Shown: positions 27,343 to 55,354 of the stretch, one piece after another
How positions within the stretch are numbered: position 1 is the first letter of the stretch
How the letters are laid out: the number at the start of each line of letters is the position of its first letter
Assembly (NCBI GenBank): GCA_016192705.1
Contig: JACPTQ010000042.1
Location: forward strand, 62,001-126,000
DNA: 64,000 nucleotides
Source: Deltaproteobacteria bacterium
Lineage (GTDB): Bacteria > Myxococcota > JACPTQ01
Reading direction: 5' to 3'
Translations under genes and position numbers: made by a program
Notes under the pieces: model-generated
Database searches by the model: none
The model's input: the letters and a program-made list of their open reading frames with translations, nothing else
Told to the model about the DNA's origin: nothing

Positions 27343-28776
27343 CTATCGACCAAACCCAACGAACTGGCCGTCAACGCAATACGTTTGCCGGTCGTTTCTT
27401 CGCGGATTCGTCATCCCGCTCGGCGTATCCCGCGCAAAGCAGCGCGTGTACCCGCCATCACCGTCCATGCCAGTATTCTGATTGTTCGCCGCCATGTGTG
27501 CGCCGGAAAAGAAGACCCCGCCGTCCGCCTTCTGCGCCATCATGATGATCGACCTCCCCTCGTTACCAAACGGATTCCCCATAGAATCAACGATGGTAAA
27601 GAACCCGCTCATGCTCGCAGGCGCTGGCGACGACGCGCGTCCCCCGTCCGGTGGGTTCCACGTCGTCACCGACCCTCCATCCACCATGCCACCCCAACTG
27701 CTTCGGCCATCGACCCAGTTGCCCGCACCAAACCATGTCGCCACCGTCGAATCCGACAGCGCCACAAGGCGGCCAACGCCACCATCGTTTTCGATCCCGG
27801 CATCCCGTGTCTGCGCAACGAGCGTTACTTCGCCCGCATCGCCAATGCGAACGTTCATCAGGGTGAGCGGGTCGCCCCCCCCGTATGTCATCAAATAGAG
27901 TGTGCGATTGCGGAGGTCGTTGATTGTCGCCGCATTTGCCGCGGAAATTCCAATGATTCCGCCGCTTCCTCGCGCCAGATCGATGAGCACCGCCCCAGCC
28001 GCCGTGGCGGTCGCCCGAGCACGCATCGAACTCGTTTGGCCCGTGGGGATGTCGATTGTCGTAACGCCGTTCGCGCAGGTCGAACCACCGTCCGGGATCG
28101 TCATCGTGCCTTGGTCGCCCGACGTCAGCGCTGACTTGATTGGGTCGTTGCTGTTGCCGGTCGAGTAGGCGCCGTTGACGACGAGTCCGTAGTCGTAGTT
28201 CGTTACCCCGCTGATCGTTCCGTCGCTTGCCCCGGTCAGCGTTGACTGACCGAACACTTGCGATAGAACGCCCGGCGGTCCGACGCGAACCGTGTTGTAC
28301 GTCCCTGACAAGTTGTGGCAGTCGGACATGATCACGCCGAGGTGCAGGTCGTGTCGCCTTTCGCCGCCGCTTCCCGCCGGGTGCGCGATGTAAGCGACGC
28401 CCGGGAATTCGAGCGTATAAAACTGGTCGCCCGCCTTTGGCGACCCGCCGTCCGCGATCGTCGGCGTCACACCCGATAATGTGCATGTCCGATAATCAAA
28501 CGTGGCGTTCCGCGCGCTGCACGCGCCCGTAATGACGTGCGTTCCGCCGTCGACGGCGTTCCCCGTCTCGTCGACCTTCGTGAGCGTGACGCGAATATCC
28601 GCGCCGCCATCCGCGACGACCCACACGGCGAGGTCGCCTTCGCCCGACGTCGCCACGTACGACAGCGACGACGACGTCGACGACGACCCGCCACCACCGC
28701 CCGACGTGCTGCCCTTGCAACCAACCGCTGCACAACAGCCAATCAGCGCAAACCAACGAACCGCTTCACGATTCAT
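27343..28776 (-). CDS. lipoprotein, tandem paralogue A, unknown function
   Basis: A 477-residue protein starting at ATG 28776 after a GAGGAGTGG ribosome site. The signal peptide ends in AAVGC, a lipobox, followed by a Gly/Ser linker. The remainder aligns along its full length with the next gene upstream (476 residues): SYVATSGEGDLAVW, GGTHVITGAC, GVAYIAHP, RRHDLHLGVI, GGSTCANGVTTI, GGIIGISAANAAT, and the end DRQTYCVDGQFVGFGR. The sequence is rich in beta-strand and Asp-Gly-Gly turns, as in other surface proteins here. No known domain is recognised. The 47-nt gap to paralogue B suggests one transcript. Confidence 0.75.
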   Translation of the reverse strand: MNREAVRWFALIGCCAAVGCKGSTSGGGGGSSSTSSSLSYVATSGEGDLAVWVVADGGADIRVTLTKVDETGNAVDGGTHVITGACSARNATFDYRTCTLSGVTPTIADGGSPKAGDQFYTLEFPGVAYIAHPAGSGGERRHDLHLGVIMSDCHNLSGTYNTVRVGPPGVLSQVFGQSTLTGASDGTISGVTNYDYGLVVNGAYSTGNSNDPIKSALTSGDQGTMTIPDGGSTCANGVTTIDIPTGQTSSMRARATATAAGAVLIDLARGSGGIIGISAANAATINDLRNRTLYLMTYGGGDPLTLMNVRIGDAGEVTLVAQTRDAGIENDGGVGRLVALSDSTVATWFGAGNWVDGRSSWGGMVDGGSVTTWNPPDGGRASSPAPASMSGFFTIVDSMGNPFGNEGRSIIMMAQKADGGVFFSGAHMAANNQNTGMDGDGGYTRCFARDTPSGMTNPRRNDRQTYCVDGQFVGFGR

Positions 28777-28823
28777 TTTCCACTCCTCGTTACGCGTCGT
28801 TTCTGCCGCGCATACCCCCTCAA

Positions 28824-30254
28824 TTAACGCGAGTAACCGACGAACGGCCCGTCGATGCAGTAACTCTGGCGATCGTTCTTGCGCCCGTCGGGTGTCCCGT
28901 CGGGTCGCGGCTTCGAGAAGCAACGCGTGTAGCCACCGTCTGAATCCTTGCCGCTGTTGTCGTTGTTCACGCCCATATGCACGCCCGACAAAAAGATTCC
29001 GCCGTCCGCCTTCTGCGCCGCGAGAATGATAGGCCGTCCCTTTTCGATGAATGGGCGCCCTTGATTGTCAACGATCGTGAAAAACCCACTAAGCGTCGAT
29101 GGCGCTGGCGACGATGCCCGCCCGCCATCGGGTGGACTCCACGTGTTAACGAACCCCCCATCGACCGTCGCCGACGTCATGTTCTTGGAGTCAACCCAAC
29201 TCCCCGCACCAAAATAACTGGTGAGTGACGAATCGCCAAGCGCAACCATTCGGCCTAAACCGCCATCGTCCTCAGGACCGCCGTCCTTGACGTCCGCAAC
29301 AAACGTCACCTCGCCGGCATCGCCTACGCGAACACGCATCAGGTTAACTGAATCATCGCCTTCATAAGCAACAATGAAAAGATCGCGATTTCGAAGGTCA
29401 CTGAGCGTCGCGGCGCTCGCGGCCGAGATGCCGATGATTCCACCGAGACCCCGCGGCAGGTCGATAAGGAGCGCCCCGGCATTCGTGACCGTCGCGCGCG
29501 CGAACACCGCACTCCCTCCTCCAGCGGGCAAGGCGATCGTTGTTACACCGTTCGCGCACGTAGACCCGCCGTCAGCAATCGAAATAGTGAACTCATCGGT
29601 AAGCAACGCAACCTTGATCGGGTCGCTGCTGCTGTTATCTGAATAGGCGCCGTTGACGACCATGCCATAGTCGTAGTGCGTGACCGCGCTCACCGTGCCG
29701 TCGTTCGCTCCCGTTAAGGAGAACTGTCCAAAACCTTCGATCAATGTGCCAGGCGGCCCAACGTGAACCATGTTGTACGAGCCCGTGATGTTGTGGCAGC
29801 TCGCGGCGATGACGCCGACGTGCAGATCATGCCGCTTGTCGCCACTCTGCGAACCCGTGGGGTGCGCGATGTACGCAACGCCCGGCAATTCGAGCGTGAC
29901 GTACTGGTCGCCCGCTTTCGGAGAGCCGCTGTTCGCTACGACGGGCGTCACCGACGAGATCGTGCACTTGCGGTAATCGAGAACCGCGTCGCGTGCGCCG
30001 CATGAGCCAGCGATCGTATGCGTACCGCCGTCGACGGGATTGCCGGAGGTGTCGACCTTCGTGAGAACCACGGTCACGCTGCCGCCACCATCCGCGACTG
30101 TCCACACCGCGAGGTCCCCCTCGCCCGACGTCGCGACGTAAGTTGATGGTGTCACGACCGCATCGCCGCCGCTTCCTCCGCCACCTGAACTGCTCTTGCA
30201 CGCCAATCCCAACACAGCAAAAAGCGACGTCCACAATAGACCGTTACGACTCAT
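28824..30254 (-). CDS. lipoprotein, tandem paralogue B, unknown function
   Basis: A 476-residue protein with an AAAGGAG ribosome site. The signal peptide ends in VLGLAC, then KSSSGGGGSGG. It is the first of a tandem pair, matching paralogue A throughout: SYVATSGEGDLAVW, GVAYIAHP, HDLHVGVIAASCHN, GGSTCANGVTTIALP, LGGIIGISAASAATLSDLRN, and SYCIDGPFVGYSR at the end. Conserved cysteines in both copies suggest disulfides in an exported fold. Function is unknown. The region upstream holds a palindromic element, not an obvious promoter. Confidence 0.75.
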   Translation of the reverse strand: MSRNGLLWTSLFAVLGLACKSSSGGGGSGGDAVVTPSTYVATSGEGDLAVWTVADGGGSVTVVLTKVDTSGNPVDGGTHTIAGSCGARDAVLDYRKCTISSVTPVVANSGSPKAGDQYVTLELPGVAYIAHPTGSQSGDKRHDLHVGVIAASCHNITGSYNMVHVGPPGTLIEGFGQFSLTGANDGTVSAVTHYDYGMVVNGAYSDNSSSDPIKVALLTDEFTISIADGGSTCANGVTTIALPAGGGSAVFARATVTNAGALLIDLPRGLGGIIGISAASAATLSDLRNRDLFIVAYEGDDSVNLMRVRVGDAGEVTFVADVKDGGPEDDGGLGRMVALGDSSLTSYFGAGSWVDSKNMTSATVDGGFVNTWSPPDGGRASSPAPSTLSGFFTIVDNQGRPFIEKGRPIILAAQKADGGIFLSGVHMGVNNDNSGKDSDGGYTRCFSKPRPDGTPDGRKNDRQSYCIDGPFVGYSR

Positions 30255-30335: not shown

Positions 30336-30475
30336 TTGCGGCAGAAAATACACCCGACGCGCGAGCCCCACAACTCTATTTCTGCCGCAATCTGCCGACA
30401 AGCCTGTGGCTTGTTGGCGCGGCAGAAATGGGGAGCGCCTGTTTACAGAGCGCGAACCCCACCTCTCTTTTCGCG
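30336..30475. repeat. palindromic element, intergenic copy (relative of the one inside leuS)
   Basis: Three arms of one motif are present: TTGCGGCAGAAAATA at 30336-30350, its near-complement TATTTCTGCCGCAA at 30377-30390, and GCGGCAGAAATGGGG at 30419-30433. Arms two and three form a hairpin whose tip is ACAAGCC-TGT-GGCTTGT, a perfect 7-bp stem. The right part (CGAACCCCACCTC) parallels the matching part of the leuS copy. The element lies between the divergent lipoprotein B and SCP2 genes and fills most of that 270-nt gap. Confidence 0.75.
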
Positions 30476-30998: not shown

Positions 30999-32177
30999 AT
31001 GGCGTACGACGCGGACCTGAATTTTAATTTCGTTTACCGAACGAAAATCGTCTTCGGCGCCGGAAGTTTGCGCGAGGCACCGATAGAAGTGGCGGCGCTG
31101 GGTGGAACACGGGTGCTACTCGTGACCGACCCGGGTGTCGTAAAGCTTGGGCTCGCGAAGCGCGTCGAGGCGGCGCTCGGCCAAGGCTCGGGAGGGATGC
31201 ACGTAGGGACTTACGCCGATGTGCCGAGTGATTCGTCAATCGACACGGTCGAGCGCGGCGCGGCACTTGGGCGCGAGATGAAGGCCGATGCGGTCGTCAG
31301 CGTTGGGGGCGGCAGCGTCATCGACACGGCGAAGGGAATCGCCATTTGTCTCGGCACGGGGCACCGACTCGTTGAGCACGAAGGGTGCAACACGCTTTCG
31401 AAGCGGCTCACGCCGCACGTCGTTATTCCGACGACGGCGGGCACGGGGAGCGAAGTGAGCTACGCGGCCGTTGTCAAAGACGCCGAGAAACACCGAAAGA
31501 TTCTGTTCGTCGACTGGTTTATTATCCCCGACACGGCGATCCTCGACCCCGAGCTGACGGTCGGGTTGCCACCCAAACTCACGGCGGCCACGGGAATGGA
31601 TGCGCTCACGCACGCGGTCGAATCGCTCCATTCGCTCCAGCGCGAACCGATCGCCGACGCGCTCGCGCTTCATGCGATTCGCCTCATCAAGGAGTATCTG
31701 CCGCAGGCCGTAGAGAACGGCAAAGACTTGCACGTTCGCGGACAGATGCTCATTGCGGCGAACATCGCGGGGTGCGCGTTTTCGAACGCGCAGGTTGGGC
31801 TGGTGCATGCGATGGCGCACACGGCGGGCGCTCGGTTCGGCATCCACCATGGCCACGCGAATTCGATCTTTTTGCCGCACGTGATTCGGTACAACGGCGA
31901 TGCGTGCGCCGATCGGTATCGGCTGGCGGCCGAGGCGATGGGCGTCGACACGCGCGCGATGAACGACGACGCGGCGGTTGAGGCGGCGGCGCGAGCGTGT
32001 GCGGAACTGGCGGCGCGCTGCGGGCTTTCGGCGCGGCTTCGCGATGTTGGCGTCGCTGAGAGTGCGATCACCGCGGAGCTTGCGGAGGCGACGACCTACG
32101 ACGGGTCGATCGTCTACAACCCGAAGTTCGTGGGTGAGTCGGCCTCGCTCATCCCGGTTTACAAGGCGGCGTGGTGA
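30999..32177 (+). CDS. iron-containing alcohol dehydrogenase
   Basis: A 392-residue group III (Fe) alcohol dehydrogenase with an AAAGGAG ribosome site. NAD(P)-binding GGGSVIDTAKG is at about residue 102, TTAGTGSEVS at about 147, and the metal site shows GMDALTHAVE (Asp and His), HAMAHTAGA and IHHGHANS, giving the usual Asp and three His ligands. Length is normal. Family members reduce or oxidise a wide range of alcohols; substrate cannot be read from sequence. It lies between two SCP2-domain genes, the second of which starts on the last base of this gene's stop (TGATG). Confidence 0.92.
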   Translation: MAYDADLNFNFVYRTKIVFGAGSLREAPIEVAALGGTRVLLVTDPGVVKLGLAKRVEAALGQGSGGMHVGTYADVPSDSSIDTVERGAALGREMKADAVVSVGGGSVIDTAKGIAICLGTGHRLVEHEGCNTLSKRLTPHVVIPTTAGTGSEVSYAAVVKDAEKHRKILFVDWFIIPDTAILDPELTVGLPPKLTAATGMDALTHAVESLHSLQREPIADALALHAIRLIKEYLPQAVENGKDLHVRGQMLIAANIAGCAFSNAQVGLVHAMAHTAGARFGIHHGHANSIFLPHVIRYNGDACADRYRLAAEAMGVDTRAMNDDAAVEAAARACAELAARCGLSARLRDVGVAESAITAELAEATTYDGSIVYNPKFVGESASLIPVYKAAW

Positions 32178-40890: not shown

Positions 40891-43800
40891 TTACGGAATA
40901 TCAACGACGGCTGACGGCGTCGCGCGATCTTGAGTCGTTCCGTCGCCGAGCTGGCCGAACGCATTGTCACCCCAACACGCGAGCGTCCCGTCGCCTTGAA
41001 TGGCGCACGTGAATGCCCCGCCCGTCGCCATGAGAAGAATGTTTGCGACGCTGCTTGCGAGCGTCGGCGTTAACTTCACGCTGGTCGTCCCGTCGCCAAT
41101 CTGACCGCGGGAGTTCTGCCCCCAGCACGACGCTGTTCCATCGCTTCGTCGAATGCAGGTGTGCGAACGCCCCGCCCAAACCCCCGTCGCGGCCCCCGCA
41201 TCGAGAGTGGCGACGTTCGTTGCTATCCAGCGGTCTGTCTGTGTTCCGTCGCCCAGCTGGCCGTCTGAATTCGCGCCCCAGCACGTCGCCGTTCCGTTCG
41301 CGAGCAGCGCGCACGTGTGAAGTTCGCCGGCCGCGAGAGCCTTCGCGCTCGTGACGCCAATCACCGCGACCGGCGCCGACCTCCCCGCGTCGGTTCCATC
41401 GCCGAGCTGGCCCGCGTTGTTTCGCCCCCAGCACCACGGCACGCCACCATCCAATACAACGAGCGCACACGCGTGAAATCCACCGACCGCGATCGACCGA
41501 ACATTCGCGAGACCGTTGACAACGGCTGGAGCGGCAAAGTCGCCGGTCGTGTTGTTCCCGATTTGACCATACGTGTTCGCGCCCCAGCACTTGACCGTCC
41601 CGTCGCCAAGCAGCGCGCAGCTTTGACCCGCTCCGCCCGCAATCGTCACCGCCGAGCCGAGGCCCGCCACGACCGTCGGAACCGCGCGATCGGTCGCCGT
41701 GCCATCTCCAATTCCACCATCTCGGTTGTCGCCCCAGCAAACGACACGGCCGCCATCGCTCACAATCGCACAGCTGTGCGCATACCCTGCTCCGACCGCG
41801 ACAACATCGCCGAGTGCCGCGACGTCGACCGGGCGGCTTCGGTTCGTCGTTGTCCCGTCGCCGAGTTGACCGTGGTCGTTCATTCCCCAACACTTGACGC
41901 CGCCCGTTGTCATTCGCGCGCACGTGTGTCCCGCGCCCGCCGCCAGCATCGTCGCGCCCTCAGGGCCAAGCGGTGCCATCGACAAGACGGGGGTAACGCT
42001 CGCGTCGGTCCCGCCCGTACCGAAGTTTCCGTAGGTATTGGTCCCCCAACATTGCACGGTTCCGTCCCACTGTGACGCGCAAGAATAGGAGTACGATCCT
42101 TGCATGCTCGCCGCATTCGCGAGGTTCGACACCGCTACGGGCGTCGGCCGCGTCACCGTCGTGCCGTCACCCACCGCACCGAATTGGTTGTGGCCCCAAC
42201 ATTTTGCTGTCCCATCGGCAAGCGTTGCGCAAGTGTGATTGGATCCACAGGAGAGGTCGACCGCGCCGGCCAAATCGAGAACAGGAACTGGGACCGGGCT
42301 GTCGGGACCACCGTCGTTCCCAAGTTTCCCCGAATTGTTGTCGCCCCAACATCGGGCGCTGCCGTTTGCGAGCCGCGCGCACGAGAAATACCACGCCAAA
42401 GAAACTTCGACGGCGTCTGTAATCCCTTCAACCACAACCGGTGAATTCGAAAACGCGCCGCCGCCGTCATTTCCAAGTGCGCCTTCACCATTGCCTCCCC
42501 AACACCGAACTCCGCCGGTCGAGAGAACGGCACATGCGTGAGTGCCACTTACTTTCACGTCGACCGCGTCTGATATTCCCGCGACGGTGACGGGCACAAG
42601 GCTGCAATCCGATCCGCCGCAGAGCGGCCCGTGGCTTGTGACGCCGTCGCCAAGCAAGCCACTCGAATTGCCGCCCCAGCAGCGAATCGTTCCGTCATCC
42701 CTAAGAGCGCACGTCGAGTAAAACCCGGCCGCAACAGCGACTGCTCTCCCGCCCATGCTCGATGGCGTAACCAGCGATGCGCTGTTCACCGTCGACCCGT
42801 TACCAAGTTGACCGTAGTCGTTCATTCCCCAGCACCGCACGGTCCCGTCGCGAAGCACGGCGCACGAGTGCGTCCAGCCGGTCGAAATCTGGGCAACGCC
42901 AGAAAGCTCTGTATTCACAAACCCAGAGGGGTAGCAGCTTGATGTGCCGCCAAAAAGGTTGTTGCACGTGCTCGCCGGTGCGCCGGCTCCCTGTCCGAGC
43001 TGCCCGACGGCGCTTCCTCCCCAACACTTCGCCGTTCCGTCCGCGAGTACGACGCACGTGTGGAGGCTGTCGGGCCCCGCGGCGAGTTGAATGACCGACT
43101 TCGTGCTTGCCGGCTTCGACGACACCTCGTTTGAATTCGAATCGCGGTTGCCCGCCTGATCACGTGCGCGAACAACGAAGTAGTACCGAGTCCCCTGGGT
43201 GAGGCCCGTCACGGTCGTCGATGTTTGTCCGGCGTCAGTTGAGATCCCCGCATCGTACGTGGCAATGCACGTTCCCGCGACCGTCGACAGGCAAATGTCA
43301 TAAGGAATCGCCGCCGATGCGTCGGTAACGGCGTCGATCGCCGCATCCCACGAGAGCGCGATGCTCGATGTCGACACGCCTTTCACGGAACCAACGCCCG
43401 CAAAAGTCGGTCCCGTACTGTCTTCTGTGTAAGTGACGACAATCGAATGACACGCCACGGGATTGCCGGCGACGTCGGTCACCGTCGCGTAAAACGCGGC
43501 TGTCGCGTTGTCAGGCACCGAGACCGCAACGCTGAAACCCGCGTCGCTGTTGGCTGTGGTCGTCGCGGGCGATGCGCCTGTGCACTGCGAGTCTTGGTAT
43601 ATCCGAACGGTCGATGCCGCCTCTGCGGTGCCGCTCACGACGGGGCTGTTGTTGTTCGCAGGTCCAACGGGGGAGACACTGGCGTTTAACACTAAGCTCG
43701 GGAGTGCCGTGTCGTTGACGTAGACGACGCCGCCGTCCGAACAGGCCGAAACATTCCCGGCCGAGTCGATCGCGCTCGCGAAAAAAGTCGACGTCGAATT

Positions 43801-44844
43801 GGCCGAGACCGTCAGCGATATCCCGGCGTCCCCAAACGCCGCCGCCGAACCTTGCACGGCAACGCCTCCGTCACACTCAGCCGCGGCGTGGATTCGCACG
43901 GTTGAACCAACTTCAGCGGACCCTTTCAACATCGGCACCAGGTTATTCGACGGCGACGCGGGCGAGACGGAGAGCCCCGACGGCGCAGCGGGCGCGACGC
44001 TGTCGTTCGTGTACGAAAGAGGCCCGACGCACGGCGAGACGTTAGACGCGGTGTCGGTCGCTTGGGCGAAAAGCGTCGTCGTTTGGTTCGCGGGCACGGT
44101 CACTTGGATTCCGGGCGATTTGAACGCCGCGCCCGTCCCGGTCGCGAGAAGCGCCGCGGTCGCGCACGTCGACGCCGAGTATATCTTGACGGTCCAGTCG
44201 TCGTCCGCGGTTCCAATGACGAGTGGCGTCAGGCTCGGCGATGGCGATGCCGGAGTCGTGGACGAAACCGTGAGCGACGTCGACGTTGTGGTCTTGCACG
44301 AATAACCCGTTCGGCACGGAATTTCACACGTGGTGGTTTTCGCGGCCGCGGAAACGAGTTGCAACGCGGCGCCCGTATCATCGACCTCGCGCGTCACCGA
44401 CTCCGATTTGTCGCCTTGCAACGTGACGACGCATCGAAGCGAAATCGGCGATGAGCCCCAATTCCCACTGAAGTTGAACGTGAAATTCGTGTTGGTGCTC
44501 GAAAACGGGCTCGGGATGATGCTGACGCAGTATTCGTTTCGGCCGTCGGCGTCGCAGTCCGAAACGCTCGCGGAGTACCGAATCCCTTGCACGTTGTACT
44601 CTTGCGCGGCCATCGCTGTGAGGTTGAGGCCCGCATCGCCGACGCCGTCGAGAATGAGCTGCAAGCCGGTCACGGCCGCGACATCGAAGTTGGTCCCGAG
44701 GCGGACCTTCGCGGTGAGCGCCGCGTTCTCTTTCGTCGCCGGGCAGCCGAACAGTGCGACCACCAAAACGAATGGGCCCCACCAATAAGTTCCGCGCGTC
44801 GCGCACCGAGAGGCGATTTGATTCTTCAACAGATCACTGCCCAT
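40891..44844 (-). CDS. giant RCC1-repeat lipoprotein with Ig-like and fibronectin type III domains
   Basis: A 1317-residue surface protein. The signal peptide ends in ALFGC. About residues 40-170 form an N-terminal module with cysteines; three Ig-like repeats follow to about 480, each with a phrase like TASNVSPC or SAGNVSAC; a fibronectin type III domain (about 490-590) comes next; and 14 RCC1 repeats fill about residues 600-1317. Each repeat has the form HxCAxxxDGTxxCWGxNxxGQLGDG, with a Cys pair likely forming a disulfide. Fourteen repeats would make two seven-bladed propellers. Such proteins are common in Myxococcota; the ligand is unknown. It is divergent from the gene at 45090. Confidence 0.88.
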   Translation of the reverse strand: MGSDLLKNQIASRCATRGTYWWGPFVLVVALFGCPATKENAALTAKVRLGTNFDVAAVTGLQLILDGVGDAGLNLTAMAAQEYNVQGIRYSASVSDCDADGRNEYCVSIIPSPFSSTNTNFTFNFSGNWGSSPISLRCVVTLQGDKSESVTREVDDTGAALQLVSAAAKTTTCEIPCRTGYSCKTTTSTSLTVSSTTPASPSPSLTPLVIGTADDDWTVKIYSASTCATAALLATGTGAAFKSPGIQVTVPANQTTTLFAQATDTASNVSPCVGPLSYTNDSVAPAAPSGLSVSPASPSNNLVPMLKGSAEVGSTVRIHAAAECDGGVAVQGSAAAFGDAGISLTVSANSTSTFFASAIDSAGNVSACSDGGVVYVNDTALPSLVLNASVSPVGPANNNSPVVSGTAEAASTVRIYQDSQCTGASPATTTANSDAGFSVAVSVPDNATAAFYATVTDVAGNPVACHSIVVTYTEDSTGPTFAGVGSVKGVSTSSIALSWDAAIDAVTDASAAIPYDICLSTVAGTCIATYDAGISTDAGQTSTTVTGLTQGTRYYFVVRARDQAGNRDSNSNEVSSKPASTKSVIQLAAGPDSLHTCVVLADGTAKCWGGSAVGQLGQGAGAPASTCNNLFGGTSSCYPSGFVNTELSGVAQISTGWTHSCAVLRDGTVRCWGMNDYGQLGNGSTVNSASLVTPSSMGGRAVAVAAGFYSTCALRDDGTIRCWGGNSSGLLGDGVTSHGPLCGGSDCSLVPVTVAGISDAVDVKVSGTHACAVLSTGGVRCWGGNGEGALGNDGGGAFSNSPVVVEGITDAVEVSLAWYFSCARLANGSARCWGDNNSGKLGNDGGPDSPVPVPVLDLAGAVDLSCGSNHTCATLADGTAKCWGHNQFGAVGDGTTVTRPTPVAVSNLANAASMQGSYSYSCASQWDGTVQCWGTNTYGNFGTGGTDASVTPVLSMAPLGPEGATMLAAGAGHTCARMTTGGVKCWGMNDHGQLGDGTTTNRSRPVDVAALGDVVAVGAGYAHSCAIVSDGGRVVCWGDNRDGGIGDGTATDRAVPTVVAGLGSAVTIAGGAGQSCALLGDGTVKCWGANTYGQIGNNTTGDFAAPAVVNGLANVRSIAVGGFHACALVVLDGGVPWCWGRNNAGQLGDGTDAGRSAPVAVIGVTSAKALAAGELHTCALLANGTATCWGANSDGQLGDGTQTDRWIATNVATLDAGAATGVWAGRSHTCIRRSDGTASCWGQNSRGQIGDGTTSVKLTPTLASSVANILLMATGGAFTCAIQGDGTLACWGDNAFGQLGDGTTQDRATPSAVVDIP

Positions 44845-51963: not shown

Positions 51964-52830
51964 ATGAACGACATCAAACACCACACCGTCCAAATAAATG
52001 GAATCTCTTTCCACGTTGCTGAAAAAGGAGAGGGGCCGCTCGCCCTCATGCTGCACGGGTTTCCCGAGTGTTGGTACTCGTGGCGATTTCAAATCGACGC
52101 GCTTGCTGCGGCTGGGTTTCGCGCTGTTGCGCCCGACCTCCGCGGGTACGGCCAAACCGACGCACCGCCGACCGGCTACGACTTGCGAACGCTGGTCGCC
52201 GATGTTCGCGCGCTTGCAGCCGAGCTCGGTGAAGAACGGCCGCACATCATCGGCCACGATTGGGGCGGCCTTATCGCGTGGTCGTATGCGCAGTCACACC
52301 CCGACGCTCTCGCGACGCTCACGGTCATGGACGCGCCGCACCCACGCGCCATTGCGTCACCCAAAGGCCTCTTAAACCCGCGGCAGCTCGCGCGCTCGTG
52401 GTACATCTTTTGGTTTCAGGTCCCGTACTTCCCAGAGCGAAAAATCGTTCGGCACGCGCGCGGCTACGCGAAGGCGGCGATACGCGGAACCGCGACCCGC
52501 AAAGAGAATTTCACCGACGCCGACATGGCGGTTTACGCTGAGTTGCTGAGCGCGAACGTTTCACAAAAACTCGCGTATTACCGGCAACTCTTTCGCCAAT
52601 TCCCAACCGTCGCCCGCGACGCGCGTCGACCCATCACGGCTCCGACGCTCGTCCTTTGGGGCGAAAACGACCCGTTCGTTGGCGCGCACTTCACGCGCGG
52701 GCTCGATGCGCTCGGCGTTTGCAACTTACGCGGCGCTCACGTCATCCCGAACGCCGCGCACTGGCTGCAACAAGAAGCGCCCGACGAAGTGAATGGTTAC
52801 CTCGTCGAGCACCTCACACGACGATGTTGA
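51964..52830 (+). CDS. alpha/beta hydrolase, epoxide hydrolase-like
   Basis: A 288-residue enzyme. The oxyanion motif HGFPECWYSW (about 31) and nucleophile elbow GHDWGG (Asp at about 99) are those of epoxide hydrolases and haloalkane dehalogenases; the HGxP form favours the former. The acid is likely Asp in WGENDPF (about 235) and the base His in NAAHWLQQE (about 264). A helical lid lies between about 135 and 210. It is a cytoplasmic enzyme with no export signal. Its end overlaps the convergent leuS end by 17 bp. Confidence 0.88.
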   Translation: MNDIKHHTVQINGISFHVAEKGEGPLALMLHGFPECWYSWRFQIDALAAAGFRAVAPDLRGYGQTDAPPTGYDLRTLVADVRALAAELGEERPHIIGHDWGGLIAWSYAQSHPDALATLTVMDAPHPRAIASPKGLLNPRQLARSWYIFWFQVPYFPERKIVRHARGYAKAAIRGTATRKENFTDADMAVYAELLSANVSQKLAYYRQLFRQFPTVARDARRPITAPTLVLWGENDPFVGAHFTRGLDALGVCNLRGAHVIPNAAHWLQQEAPDEVNGYLVEHLTRRC

Positions 52831-55354
52831 CGAGCTTGCCGGGGACGACGATGACCTTTCGCGGCGGCTTTTGGCCCAAGAAAGCGAGCACGCGTTCACT
52901 CGCAAGCGCGAGTTTTTTTGCGTCGTCTTCGGGAATCGCGGCGGGCACGTCGATTCGATCGCGCACTTTGCCGTTGACCTGGACGACCAGCGTGACGGTG
53001 TCGTCCTTTGCGAGCGCGTCGTCGTACGTGGGCCACGCCTCACGATGAACGCTCGTCGCCTTGCCGGTGCTCGCCCAAATCTCGTCGGCGAGATGCGGCG
53101 CAAGCGGCGCGAGCAAAAGCGCGAGGACCTCGCGAGCCCGCGTCCAGAGCGGATTTCGCGCAACTGCCGTCTCGCGAAGCTTCATCAAGTCGTTCACGTA
53201 CTCCATGAGCACGGCAATCGCCGTGTTGAACTGAAACGCCGACACATCGCGTGTCACGGTCTTTGTCGTCTTGTGGATGAGGCGCTCAAGCTCGCGCACC
53301 GTTGCCTCACGATCGCTGCCGCGCGGCGCTTCGATTCCAACGACGTGCGCACGCTGAAGAAACCGCACGCAGCCCTCGATTCCACGTGAATTCCATGGCC
53401 CACCGAGCTCCCAGGGCCCAATGAACATCAAGAACACGCGCACGGCGTCAGCCCCAAGCTCGGCGACCAGCTTGTCAGGATCGATGACGTTGCCGCGCGA
53501 CTTCGACATCTTTTCGCCGTCTTCGCCAAGAATCATCCCTTGGTTGAAAAGGCGCTTGAACGGTTCGTCGCCCGTGACGAGCCCCATGTCGCGAACAGCT
53601 TTCCAAAAGAACCGCGCATACAAAAGGTGCATGCAGGCGTGCTCAATGCCGCCGGTGTATTCGTCGACGGGAAGCCAGCGCTTTGCTTCGGCTGCGTCGA
53701 ATGGCGCCGCGTCGTTCGCGGGGCTGAGGTAGCGAATGAAGTACCAGCACGAACAAACGAACGTGTCGAGCGTGTCGGTCTCGCGCATCGCGGGCCCCGC
53801 GCACTTGGGGCACAACGTATTTAAGAACGCCGCATGCCGGCCCAAAGGTGAATCACCCGTCGGCCGAAACTCGACGTCATCCGGGAGCCGAACGGGCAAG
53901 TCTTTTTCTGGCACCGGAACTGTCCCGCAACGGTCGCAGTAAACAATGGGAATCGGCGACCCCCAATAGCGCTGCCGACTCACCAGCCAATCGCGCAAGC
54001 GAAAATTCACTTTGCGCGCGCCAATCCCTTTTCGCTCGATCGCTTCGGCAACGCGTGTCCAGCCCTCGGTGGACGCAAGCCCCGTGAATTCGCCGGAGTC
54101 GACCATCGCGCCGTCGCCCGTGTACGCCTCGGTTAAACGATCGCCAAAGCCGCCGTCCGGCATGATGACGACGCGAATCGGGATGCCGTGGCGCTTCGCG
54201 AAATCGAAGTCGCGCTCGTCGTGCGCCGGCACCGCCATGATCGCGCCGGTGCCGTACGACGGAAGCACGTAGTCGGCGATGTAGATGGGGACGTCCGCGC
54301 CCGTGAAAGGGTGAACCGCAGAGGCGCCCGTGAAAACGCCGGTCCGCTCGCGCTTCGTCGAGAGGCGTTCGATCTCCGACACGCGTCGCGTCGCTGCGAG
54401 GTATGCGTCGACATCGGCGCGGCGATCGGCGGTCGTCAACTCGCGCACCAGCGGATGCTCCGGCGCAAGCACCGCGAACGTCACGCCGAACAGCGTGTCG
54501 GGTCGGGTTGTGAATACTCTGAACGCCCCGCCGCTCTTCACCTTCCACTCGAATTCAACGCCGACGCTCTTCCCAATCCAATTCTTCTGCATCGCAATCA
54601 CGCGATCCGGCCACTCGAGTCCGTCGTACTTGAGAAGCTCCTCGGCATACGCCGTGATCTTGAAAAACCACTGCGTGAGGTCGCGGATTTCAACCGGCGT
54701 CTCGCATCGGTCGCAGCGCCGTTCGTCGCCAACAACCTGCTCATTCGCGAGAACCGTGTTGCACTTCGGGCAAAAATTTGCGGGCCCCTTCGCGCGATAC
54801 GCCAAGCCACGCTCAAACAGCTTCAAAAAAAACCACTGCGTCCAGCGGTAATACGCGGCGTCCGACGAAATCGCTTCGCGCGACCAATCGAACATCGCAC
54901 CCATCGAGCGCAGCTGCCCGCGCATCCTCTCGATGTTTGCGTAAGTCCACGTCTTGGGATGAATCCCGCGCTGGATCGCCGCGTTCTCCGCCGGTAAACC
55001 AAAAGAATCGAAGCCCATTGGGAAAAGAACGTCGCGGCCATTCATACGGAAAAAGCGCGCGCGCGCATCGGCTGGCACCATGGCGTACCAGTGTCCGATG
55101 TGAAGATCGCCCGAGGGATAAGGAAGCATCGTGAGCTGGTACCATTTATTTTGCGAGCGATCGGCAGTGAAGCCAGTGGCTTCGCTGCGCGAGCAAAATG
55201 GGGAGGCCGACGGAACGGAGACCGAACCCAACCATTTATCTTGCGCGCGAACGGGCGCGGTCTCGTAAAGGCGATCTGCCGCCCATCGCTCTTGCCATTT
55301 GCGCTCGAGTTCACGCGGATTGTAGCGCCCGGCCCTCGTTACCCCGGTTGTCAT
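52814..55354 (-). CDS. leuS: leucyl-tRNA synthetase with in-frame palindromic insert
   Basis: An 846-residue class I synthetase that charges tRNA-Leu. HIGH appears as GDLHIGHW (about 85), the zinc-type loops as CPKCNTVLANEQ and CDRCETP, the editing domain around 225-420 (VFTTRPDTLFG), and KMSKSRGN at about 613; the C-terminal domain ends in VVPGKLVNIVV. Near the N-terminus, between RAQDKW and YQLTM, there are 30 extra residues (SVSVPSASPFCSR and flanks) encoded by a palindromic DNA element. The flanking peptide is partly repeated (QDKW / QNKW). The insert lies before the HIGH motif, in a place that tolerates change, so the enzyme is probably active. Confidence 0.95.
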   Translation of the reverse strand: MTTGVTRAGRYNPRELERKWQERWAADRLYETAPVRAQDKWLGSVSVPSASPFCSRSEATGFTADRSQNKWYQLTMLPYPSGDLHIGHWYAMVPADARARFFRMNGRDVLFPMGFDSFGLPAENAAIQRGIHPKTWTYANIERMRGQLRSMGAMFDWSREAISSDAAYYRWTQWFFLKLFERGLAYRAKGPANFCPKCNTVLANEQVVGDERRCDRCETPVEIRDLTQWFFKITAYAEELLKYDGLEWPDRVIAMQKNWIGKSVGVEFEWKVKSGGAFRVFTTRPDTLFGVTFAVLAPEHPLVRELTTADRRADVDAYLAATRRVSEIERLSTKRERTGVFTGASAVHPFTGADVPIYIADYVLPSYGTGAIMAVPAHDERDFDFAKRHGIPIRVVIMPDGGFGDRLTEAYTGDGAMVDSGEFTGLASTEGWTRVAEAIERKGIGARKVNFRLRDWLVSRQRYWGSPIPIVYCDRCGTVPVPEKDLPVRLPDDVEFRPTGDSPLGRHAAFLNTLCPKCAGPAMRETDTLDTFVCSCWYFIRYLSPANDAAPFDAAEAKRWLPVDEYTGGIEHACMHLLYARFFWKAVRDMGLVTGDEPFKRLFNQGMILGEDGEKMSKSRGNVIDPDKLVAELGADAVRVFLMFIGPWELGGPWNSRGIEGCVRFLQRAHVVGIEAPRGSDREATVRELERLIHKTTKTVTRDVSAFQFNTAIAVLMEYVNDLMKLRETAVARNPLWTRAREVLALLLAPLAPHLADEIWASTGKATSVHREAWPTYDDALAKDDTVTLVVQVNGKVRDRIDVPAAIPEDDAKKLALASERVLAFLGQKPPRKVIVVPGKLVNIVV
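55141..55245 (-). repeat. 90-bp palindromic element inserted in frame in leuS
   Basis: Direct repeats ACCATTTATTTTGCG (55141-55155) and ACCATTTATCTTGCG (55231-55245) differ at one base and are exactly 90 bp apart, that is 30 codons. Between them, GTGAAGCCAGTGGCTTCGC forms a hairpin tip and the outer bases ATTTTGCGAGCG and CGCGAGCAAAAT extend the stem. A relative with the same order of parts, but different stem sequence, lies at 30336-30475. Confidence 0.8.

Follow-up and report, generated by a model that had tools for sequence, protein, structure and literature searches.

The window analysed here, a stretch of 64,000 nucleotides from contig JACPTQ010000042.1 of a Deltaproteobacteria bacterium, carries the leucyl-tRNA synthetase (LeuRS) gene leuS with a 90-bp insert that contributes exactly 30 additional residues to the protein and leaves the reading frame intact (Table 1). 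The insert-derived part of LeuRS comprises residues 42-71, or an equivalent shift of these, with LGSVSVPSASPF as an example of the encoded peptide, and the structured strand of the inserted copy is the plus strand, which is antisense to the leuS mRNA. A second copy in the window is situated between the start of the gene at 28824-30254 (minus strand) and the gene at 30999-32177 (plus strand). The former of these genes and its neighbour at 27343-28923 are adjacent minus-strand paralogues (27343-30254), the DNA of which is about 72-86% alike in blocks 1481 bp apart. Elsewhere in the window, nine degenerate 78-nt repeats spaced by approximately 150 bp or multiples thereof are present at 40939-43065 within a 1317-aa ORF (40891-44844, minus strand), and by appearance only they look like RCC1-type repeats.

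Table 1 Features of the leuS insert and related features. Positions are those of the window unless a locus or contig is named.
Feature	Position	Strand	Remarks
leuS, leucine--tRNA ligase	52814..55354	-	846 aa; TIGR00396 E=4e-282; sole LeuRS match in genome
Left direct repeat ACCATTTAT	55141..55149	+	target T-rich tract and element start
Element core in leuS	55148..55233	+	86 nt (ATTTTGCG...CCCAACC); CM R1 104.2 bits
Hairpin 1	55148..55199	+	7-bp stem, tandem GA/GA internal loop, 2 bp, 5-nt bulge, 11-bp variable stem, AGT loop; covariation
Hairpin 2	55200..55229	+	GGG/CCC, GA-rich internal loop, 4 bp, conserved GACGGAACGGAG loop region; covariation
Right direct repeat ACCATTTAT	55231..55239	+	runs on into ATCTTGCGCGCGAACGG, 14/17 like element 5′ end
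Full inserted unit in leuS	e.g. 55148-55237 (90 bp)	+	ends ambiguous within 9-bp repeat
Second window copy	30378..30463	+	CM R1 76.3 bits; CM R2 104.2 bits (C43:92378-92463)
Degenerate ISCR/IS91-type transposase C-terminus split by two copies	L065:1501-2263 (C77), L179:1-140 (C31)		contig end; sole Y2_Tnp match in genome

The insert in leucyl-tRNA synthetase

The original prediction held that 30 extra residues precede the HIGH motif of an otherwise normal LeuRS, and this is borne out by the protein alignment, in which exactly those residues are missing from 27 relatives of the same phylum while the remainder is collinear. They are also absent from the Thermus LeuRS, which jumps from residue 19 to 32 where the source LeuRS runs from 26 to 68, and the long spacer was found in none of the 73 LeuRS sequences measured, drawn from two sources. 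A pattern scan for LeuRS gave its top matches in Chloroflexi and Bacillota MAGs. In an AlphaFold model based on a 22-sequence alignment (mean pLDDT 85.5), residues 37-66, which correspond to the insert, are the sole segment besides residues 1-8 with a pLDDT below 50, and the additional residues are probably floppy. That the protein with the insert is made and working is inferred only from the fact that no other LeuRS gene was found in the genome.

The near-identical direct repeats reported at 90-bp spacing are likewise real, extending over 24 nt (55141-55164 and 55231-55254) with 88% identity (21/24), of which the first 9 nt are exact. The accompanying QDKW/QNKW peptides had been taken as a trace of insertion; the peptides are indeed there, but the family has no general target duplication, and the duplication in leuS arises largely because the 5′ end of the element (ATTTTGC, antisense CAAAAT) is similar to the host DNA. 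The host side of the junction at 55231-55254 matches the 5′ end of the element beyond ATTT in 14 of 17 positions and nevertheless encodes residues collinear with other LeuRS proteins, a likeness which can be explained only tentatively.

A repeat family and its two-hairpin fold

The DNA of the insert has 42 BLAST matches in the genome, the best of which reach up to 94% identity over 77 nt. CM R1 yielded 146 genome matches and CM R2, built from a second subfamily, about 18 more; altogether the 5.21-Mb draft genome contains no fewer than 160 members of the family, with several assembly contigs terminating in or next to copies and a core length of 84-89 nt across the family. Either the presence of the same 30 residues in related LeuRS proteins or the lack of other genomic copies would have refuted the prediction, and neither was encountered, the residues being in no relative and further copies being plentiful.

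Outside this genome, no matches were obtained with CM R1 in 96 other genomes of the phylum or with CM R2 in 194 phylum genomes, both under stricter filters, and an exact pattern with 22 specified bases had no hit in viral contigs or among 85k species genomes. Phage and plasmid records contained nothing relevant, the phage, plasmid and viral collections gave at most weak fragments, and a comparison of 12 element loci with Rfam matched only tRNAs and no Rfam family for the element. The element thus appears confined to its source lineage, a statement limited by sampling as no relative at the level of genus, family or class was compared. Since no sequence shared with the collections searched was detected, the predicted independent family of coding-compatible elements is supported, and insertion in frame does recur.

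The folded strand, antisense to leuS, has the hairpin 1 consensus ATTTYGC-GA-GC-NNNNN-[11-bp variable stem]-AGT-[stem]-GC-GA-GCRAAAT, followed by the hairpin 2 consensus GGG-GAG-[4 bp]-GACGGAACGGAG-[4 bp]-GAA-CCC-N-ACC. In 21 hand-picked copies, 97.9% of the cells are paired and two-sided changes are present in 17 of the 29 pairs; none of 500 shuffles reached the observed values, and the signal is lost when the partners are slid. For hairpin 2 alone, with nine pairs and 99.5% of the cells paired, the covariation score exceeds that of all 500 shuffles. Much the same pairing and covariation are found in the second subfamily, where two Watson-Crick pairs and tandem GA/GA loops occur in alternation and other loops, such as CTGTTTACAGA, take the place of GACGGAACGGAG. 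The evidence for the fold comes from the alignment and not from any single sequence, as single-sequence RNA folding gives a z of only -1.8.

Across 116 distinct copies, G.T pairs on the folded strand outnumber A.C mismatches by 97 to 10 (p about 5e-19, with copies treated as independent). A palindrome acting as a duplex would give nearly equal counts, which argues that selection sees one folded strand; whether that strand is ssDNA or RNA is undecided, the two being indistinguishable from the data here. The hairpin core of the original prediction is real and conserved, with compensatory changes, and the description of the element as palindromic is correct as regards the hairpin and incomplete otherwise, since the unit is a two-hairpin fold under one-strand selection that is often located at tRNA 3′ ends.

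Placement of the copies and traces of mobility

In at least 12 ORFs the reading frame continues uninterrupted across a copy, which is in the sense orientation in ten and in the antisense orientation in two (leuS and a transaldolase-PGI), as called from the codon phase on both flanks together with open frames. The proteins concerned include LeuRS, ProRS, a PS decarboxylase, an acyl-CoA synthetase, CusB and a flippase, and in six of the ORFs the copy lies either inside a recognised domain or immediately ahead of the HIGH motif. By Pfam, copies lie inside AMP-binding, ProRS tRNA_edit, CusB HlyD_D23, PS_Dcarbxylase and Polysacc_synt, as well as between Radical_SAM and SPASM, and the PDB homologues of ProRS and PS decarboxylase are without the inserted residues. 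Lengths always divisible by three had been anticipated for copies in genes, which does not hold: the cores are not multiples of three, junction bases bring the net length into frame, and a copy in a transposase remnant shifts the frame. This remnant, an ISCR/IS91-type C-terminus at 34.5-35.26 kb of contig C77, is interrupted by two copies, one of which separates LERLSETVDGRIAYK from LKKPRQGKRFLVMTP in a different frame while the other contributes a stop codon, and once the two flanks are joined, the ISCR profile is matched again without a break (E = 5e-15, profile 336-410). Insertion would accordingly be frame-blind, with selection retaining the harmless events; as inferred from these junctions, the frame is kept by selection and not by the element.

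A copy starts 0-1 nt past the tRNA 3′ end and on the same strand in 15 of the 41 tRNA genes, against a chance expectation of 0.002. The 3′ flanks of most tRNA genes lacking a copy are rich in T, so a preference for T tracts may suffice for the placement there, and a function of the element at tRNA ends is not excluded. In the tRNA-Arg(tcg) gene (L131:1400-1720; C44:124.6-124.9 kb), the element occupies the anticodon region and is followed by an exact 82-nt repeat of the promoter and the tRNA 5′ half and then by the intact tRNA; the tRNA-Leu(caa) gene (L020) has a diverged version of this arrangement. At tRNA-Ser(cga) (L279), a similar tRNA 5′ fragment is seen upstream of the element, and a cluster of tRNA genes (Trp, Thr, Gly, Tyr, Thr; L063, C41:76-80 kb) contains at least eight copies, some of them degenerate.

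In 75 of the 79 copies outside the MITE described below, ATTT is preceded by A or T; T accounts for 42% of the first four bases downstream of the core. Across the family, no general target-site duplication was found, the only standouts being the 82 nt at tRNA-Arg, one of 9 nt and a few of 5-6 nt, and resemblance of the flanks to the other end of the element is not general, with 5 of 75 copies at the cut-off compared to 60 of 1851 mismatched pairs. Strict or general placement of the copies 3′ of genes was not found; some abut stop codons, and many run antisense to genes or lie in divergent promoter regions, within one another, inside the MITE or in coding sequence.

The MITE itself is approximately 830 bp long and non-coding, with inverted halves, ends like CCTGATCCCCGGTTAAC and 8-9-bp target duplications of its own (e.g. 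GATTCCAA); both of its arms bear the folded element, oriented oppositely, contigs often break within it, and its loci include L059, L061, L062, L067, L073, L075, L077, L078 and others. In a subset of the MITE-borne copies (L157, L158, L160, L161, L170, L178 and others), hairpin 2 is broken after GACGGAACA by a shared sequence (CCCGAGATCTTTGTGTGCTCGGAGTTGCAAATG...), which suggests a possible third repeat. Six MITE arms are without the element, making empty and filled sites comparable: an empty site reads GCGT-CCGCAGG or CCTC-CGCAGG and a filled one ...T[ATTC...ACC]TTTGCGCAGG, which implies that the T tail is part of the unit and that about one base is lost. In nested copies, the inner element lies directly 3′ of the hairpin 1 tip (AGTGGNT) of the outer one, at the cost of two bases. 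Four copies (C79:38369, C58:62067, C58:84613 and, less clearly, leuS) have a further, incomplete 5′ portion of the element 3-6 nt downstream, whose variable stem matches that of the copy for as long as it extends; the period is about 87-90 nt, and the insertions amount to 1.2-1.4 units head-to-tail. From these a circular or concatemeric donor, or repeated use of a template, is inferred. Mobility as such is inferred from the duplications and empty sites and was not observed, because no second strain was available for comparison.

No matches to Y1/RAYT (PF01797; control genomes positive), reverse transcriptase (PF00078, RVT_1), IS110 (PF01548) or TnpB (PF07282) were found in the genome, and these were rejected as mobilisers for want of any such gene in the draft. 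The absence is not final, as the draft is 96.7% complete and breaks at repeats. The only mobiliser-type match is the broken Y2/ISCR fragment, and the two copies interrupting it may be there by chance, in a gene undergoing decay, or may point to a rolling-circle partner.

Interpretation and relation to known elements

The best explanation of the leuS feature, with a probability of roughly 0.8, is that it represents one copy of a non-autonomous mobile element, roughly 90 nt long and specific to this lineage, which folds single-stranded into two hairpins, inserts frame-blind and is tolerated in leuS as a flexible loop. Such an element would spread as a folded single strand, either ssDNA, possibly with a circular or concatemeric intermediate, or RNA copied to DNA, and the strand would join T-rich sites via a few bases of microhomology. 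Insertion would take place regardless of frame, and since only in-frame, stop-free events would survive in essential genes, translation of the leuS copy would add a flexible loop of 30 tolerated residues ahead of the HIGH motif. A more far-reaching proposal is at present only tentative, namely that this is a minimal mobile element of a new class from one under-sampled lineage, the approximately 90-nt folded strand of which, by way of a circular or concatemeric intermediate, would be joined by microhomology at T-rich sites, above all tRNA 3′ ends and the hairpin tips of its kin, with the help of host functions or of an unrecognised or IS91/ISCR-type rolling-circle enzyme, and not of RAYT, reverse transcriptase or IS110.

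The abutment on 15 of 41 tRNA genes, always on the tRNA strand, the one-strand selection on the fold and the copies abutting stop codons would also be compatible with a primarily host-serving, cis-acting RNA structure for 3′-end processing, termination or stabilisation, which works after tRNA genes and stop codons and for which the intragenic copies are side effects. This reading appears unlikely, however, given the many antisense, promoter-located, nested, MITE-borne and coding copies and the lack of a general bias to the 3′ side of genes, and a T-rich preference alone could account for the position after tRNA genes. Bypassing or splicing elements exist elsewhere and the element is structured, but splicing of the insert from the mRNA or skipping by the ribosome, leaving LeuRS without the 30 residues, is hardly credible when an open frame runs without interruption across the copy in those conserved genes that were found, the structured strand in leuS is antisense to the mRNA, and the frame is broken in a dispensable gene as plain DNA insertion predicts.

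Length variation before the HIGH motif does occur, yet an ordinary lineage-specific loop or an assembly artefact with no link to a repeat is refuted beyond reasonable doubt by the BLAST and CM matches to at least 160 other copies and the 30-residue gap in relatives; the same event moreover recurs in unrelated proteins, and the junctions are internal to a 183-kb contig. A GTAG REP family of the RAYT type, the Y1 transposase of which has disappeared or escaped the draft assembly, seems improbable: it would agree with a short palindromic element lacking a general target duplication, 16 of 82 independent copies do end in TACN, the complement of GTA, and REPs likewise occur within genes (PMC3733652), but besides the missing PF01797 match, any of the four bases may precede ACC, so that GTAG is not conserved, and 86-90 nt with two unlike hairpins is not a 20-40-bp stem-loop.

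The mobile-element reading is of wider relevance since palindromic elements compatible with coding are familiar chiefly from Rickettsia, in which their movement is still open, while the family here is independent, larger, well preserved and from an unrelated bacterium, and hits LeuRS and ProRS among others. The nested copies, empty sites, 82-bp target duplication and multimeric insertions constrain the mechanism, and that selection sees one folded strand, as indicated by covariation and the G.T/A.C asymmetry, is directly testable. The frame-breaking copies in a dispensable gene separate avoidance of damage by the element from removal of damage by selection, and the tRNA 3′-end association provides a clean assay site.

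Among known systems, a classical MITE was rejected, as there is no general target duplication and, by the alignment, the ends (ATTT..., ...NACC) are not mutual inverted repeats. The missing target duplication and head-to-tail units would fit rolling-circle HUH elements of the IS91/ISCR type, and the only Y2-like remnant in the genome contains two copies; the remnant is, however, a broken C-terminal fragment, no IS91 target tetranucleotides are found beside copies, and no direct link has been shown. GTAG REPs and REPINs, with RAYT (IS200/IS605-type Y1) transposases, are similarly palindromic, multi-copy and sometimes intragenic, with an ssDNA-type fold (PMC3733652), whereas the element here is a larger two-hairpin unit without a conserved GTAG and without any RAYT found. 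CGTC-tagged REPs, including RPE-4 and RPE-6, likewise have no dedicated transposase known and occur in intragenic copies (PMC3733652), but no CGTC tag is present at either end of the copies read, and size and fold differ. Coding palindromic repeats are described for Methanocaldococcus jannaschii and Wolbachia, as are the enterobacterial RU, ERIC and YPAL elements (PMC2229807, PMC2759123); all resemble the element as small mobile repeats in frame within genes, and YPAL/RU-2 have target duplications of variable length (3-26 bp). No sequence relation to any of these has been established, and ERIC differs by TIRs and target duplications that are as a rule absent from the element.

The Rickettsia palindromic elements (RPE) are not known to have an autonomous partner. 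Like the present family, they are short dispersed repeats that form hairpins, occupy numerous conserved protein genes with the frame preserved, and have links to RNA genes (Ogata et al. 2000; PMC2229807, PMC10969869). They measure 105-150 nt compared to 86-90 nt here, no sequence relation was detected with Rfam (12 loci) or with the exact pattern in 85k species genomes, and the host is GC-richer and outside the phylum relatives of Rickettsia; the element is further distinguished by two unlike hairpins, one-strand covariation, tRNA 3′-end copies, self-nesting and a long tRNA-gene target duplication. Within the portions of the literature on these systems that were available, no description was found of a one-strand covarying two-hairpin fold, tRNA 3′-end placement, hairpin-tip nesting or multimeric insertions. 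By analogy, the element may be called RPE-like in its way of working, family membership not being shown; judging from its sequence, for which no relation was found, it is a new, independent family that would work like the known coding palindromes.
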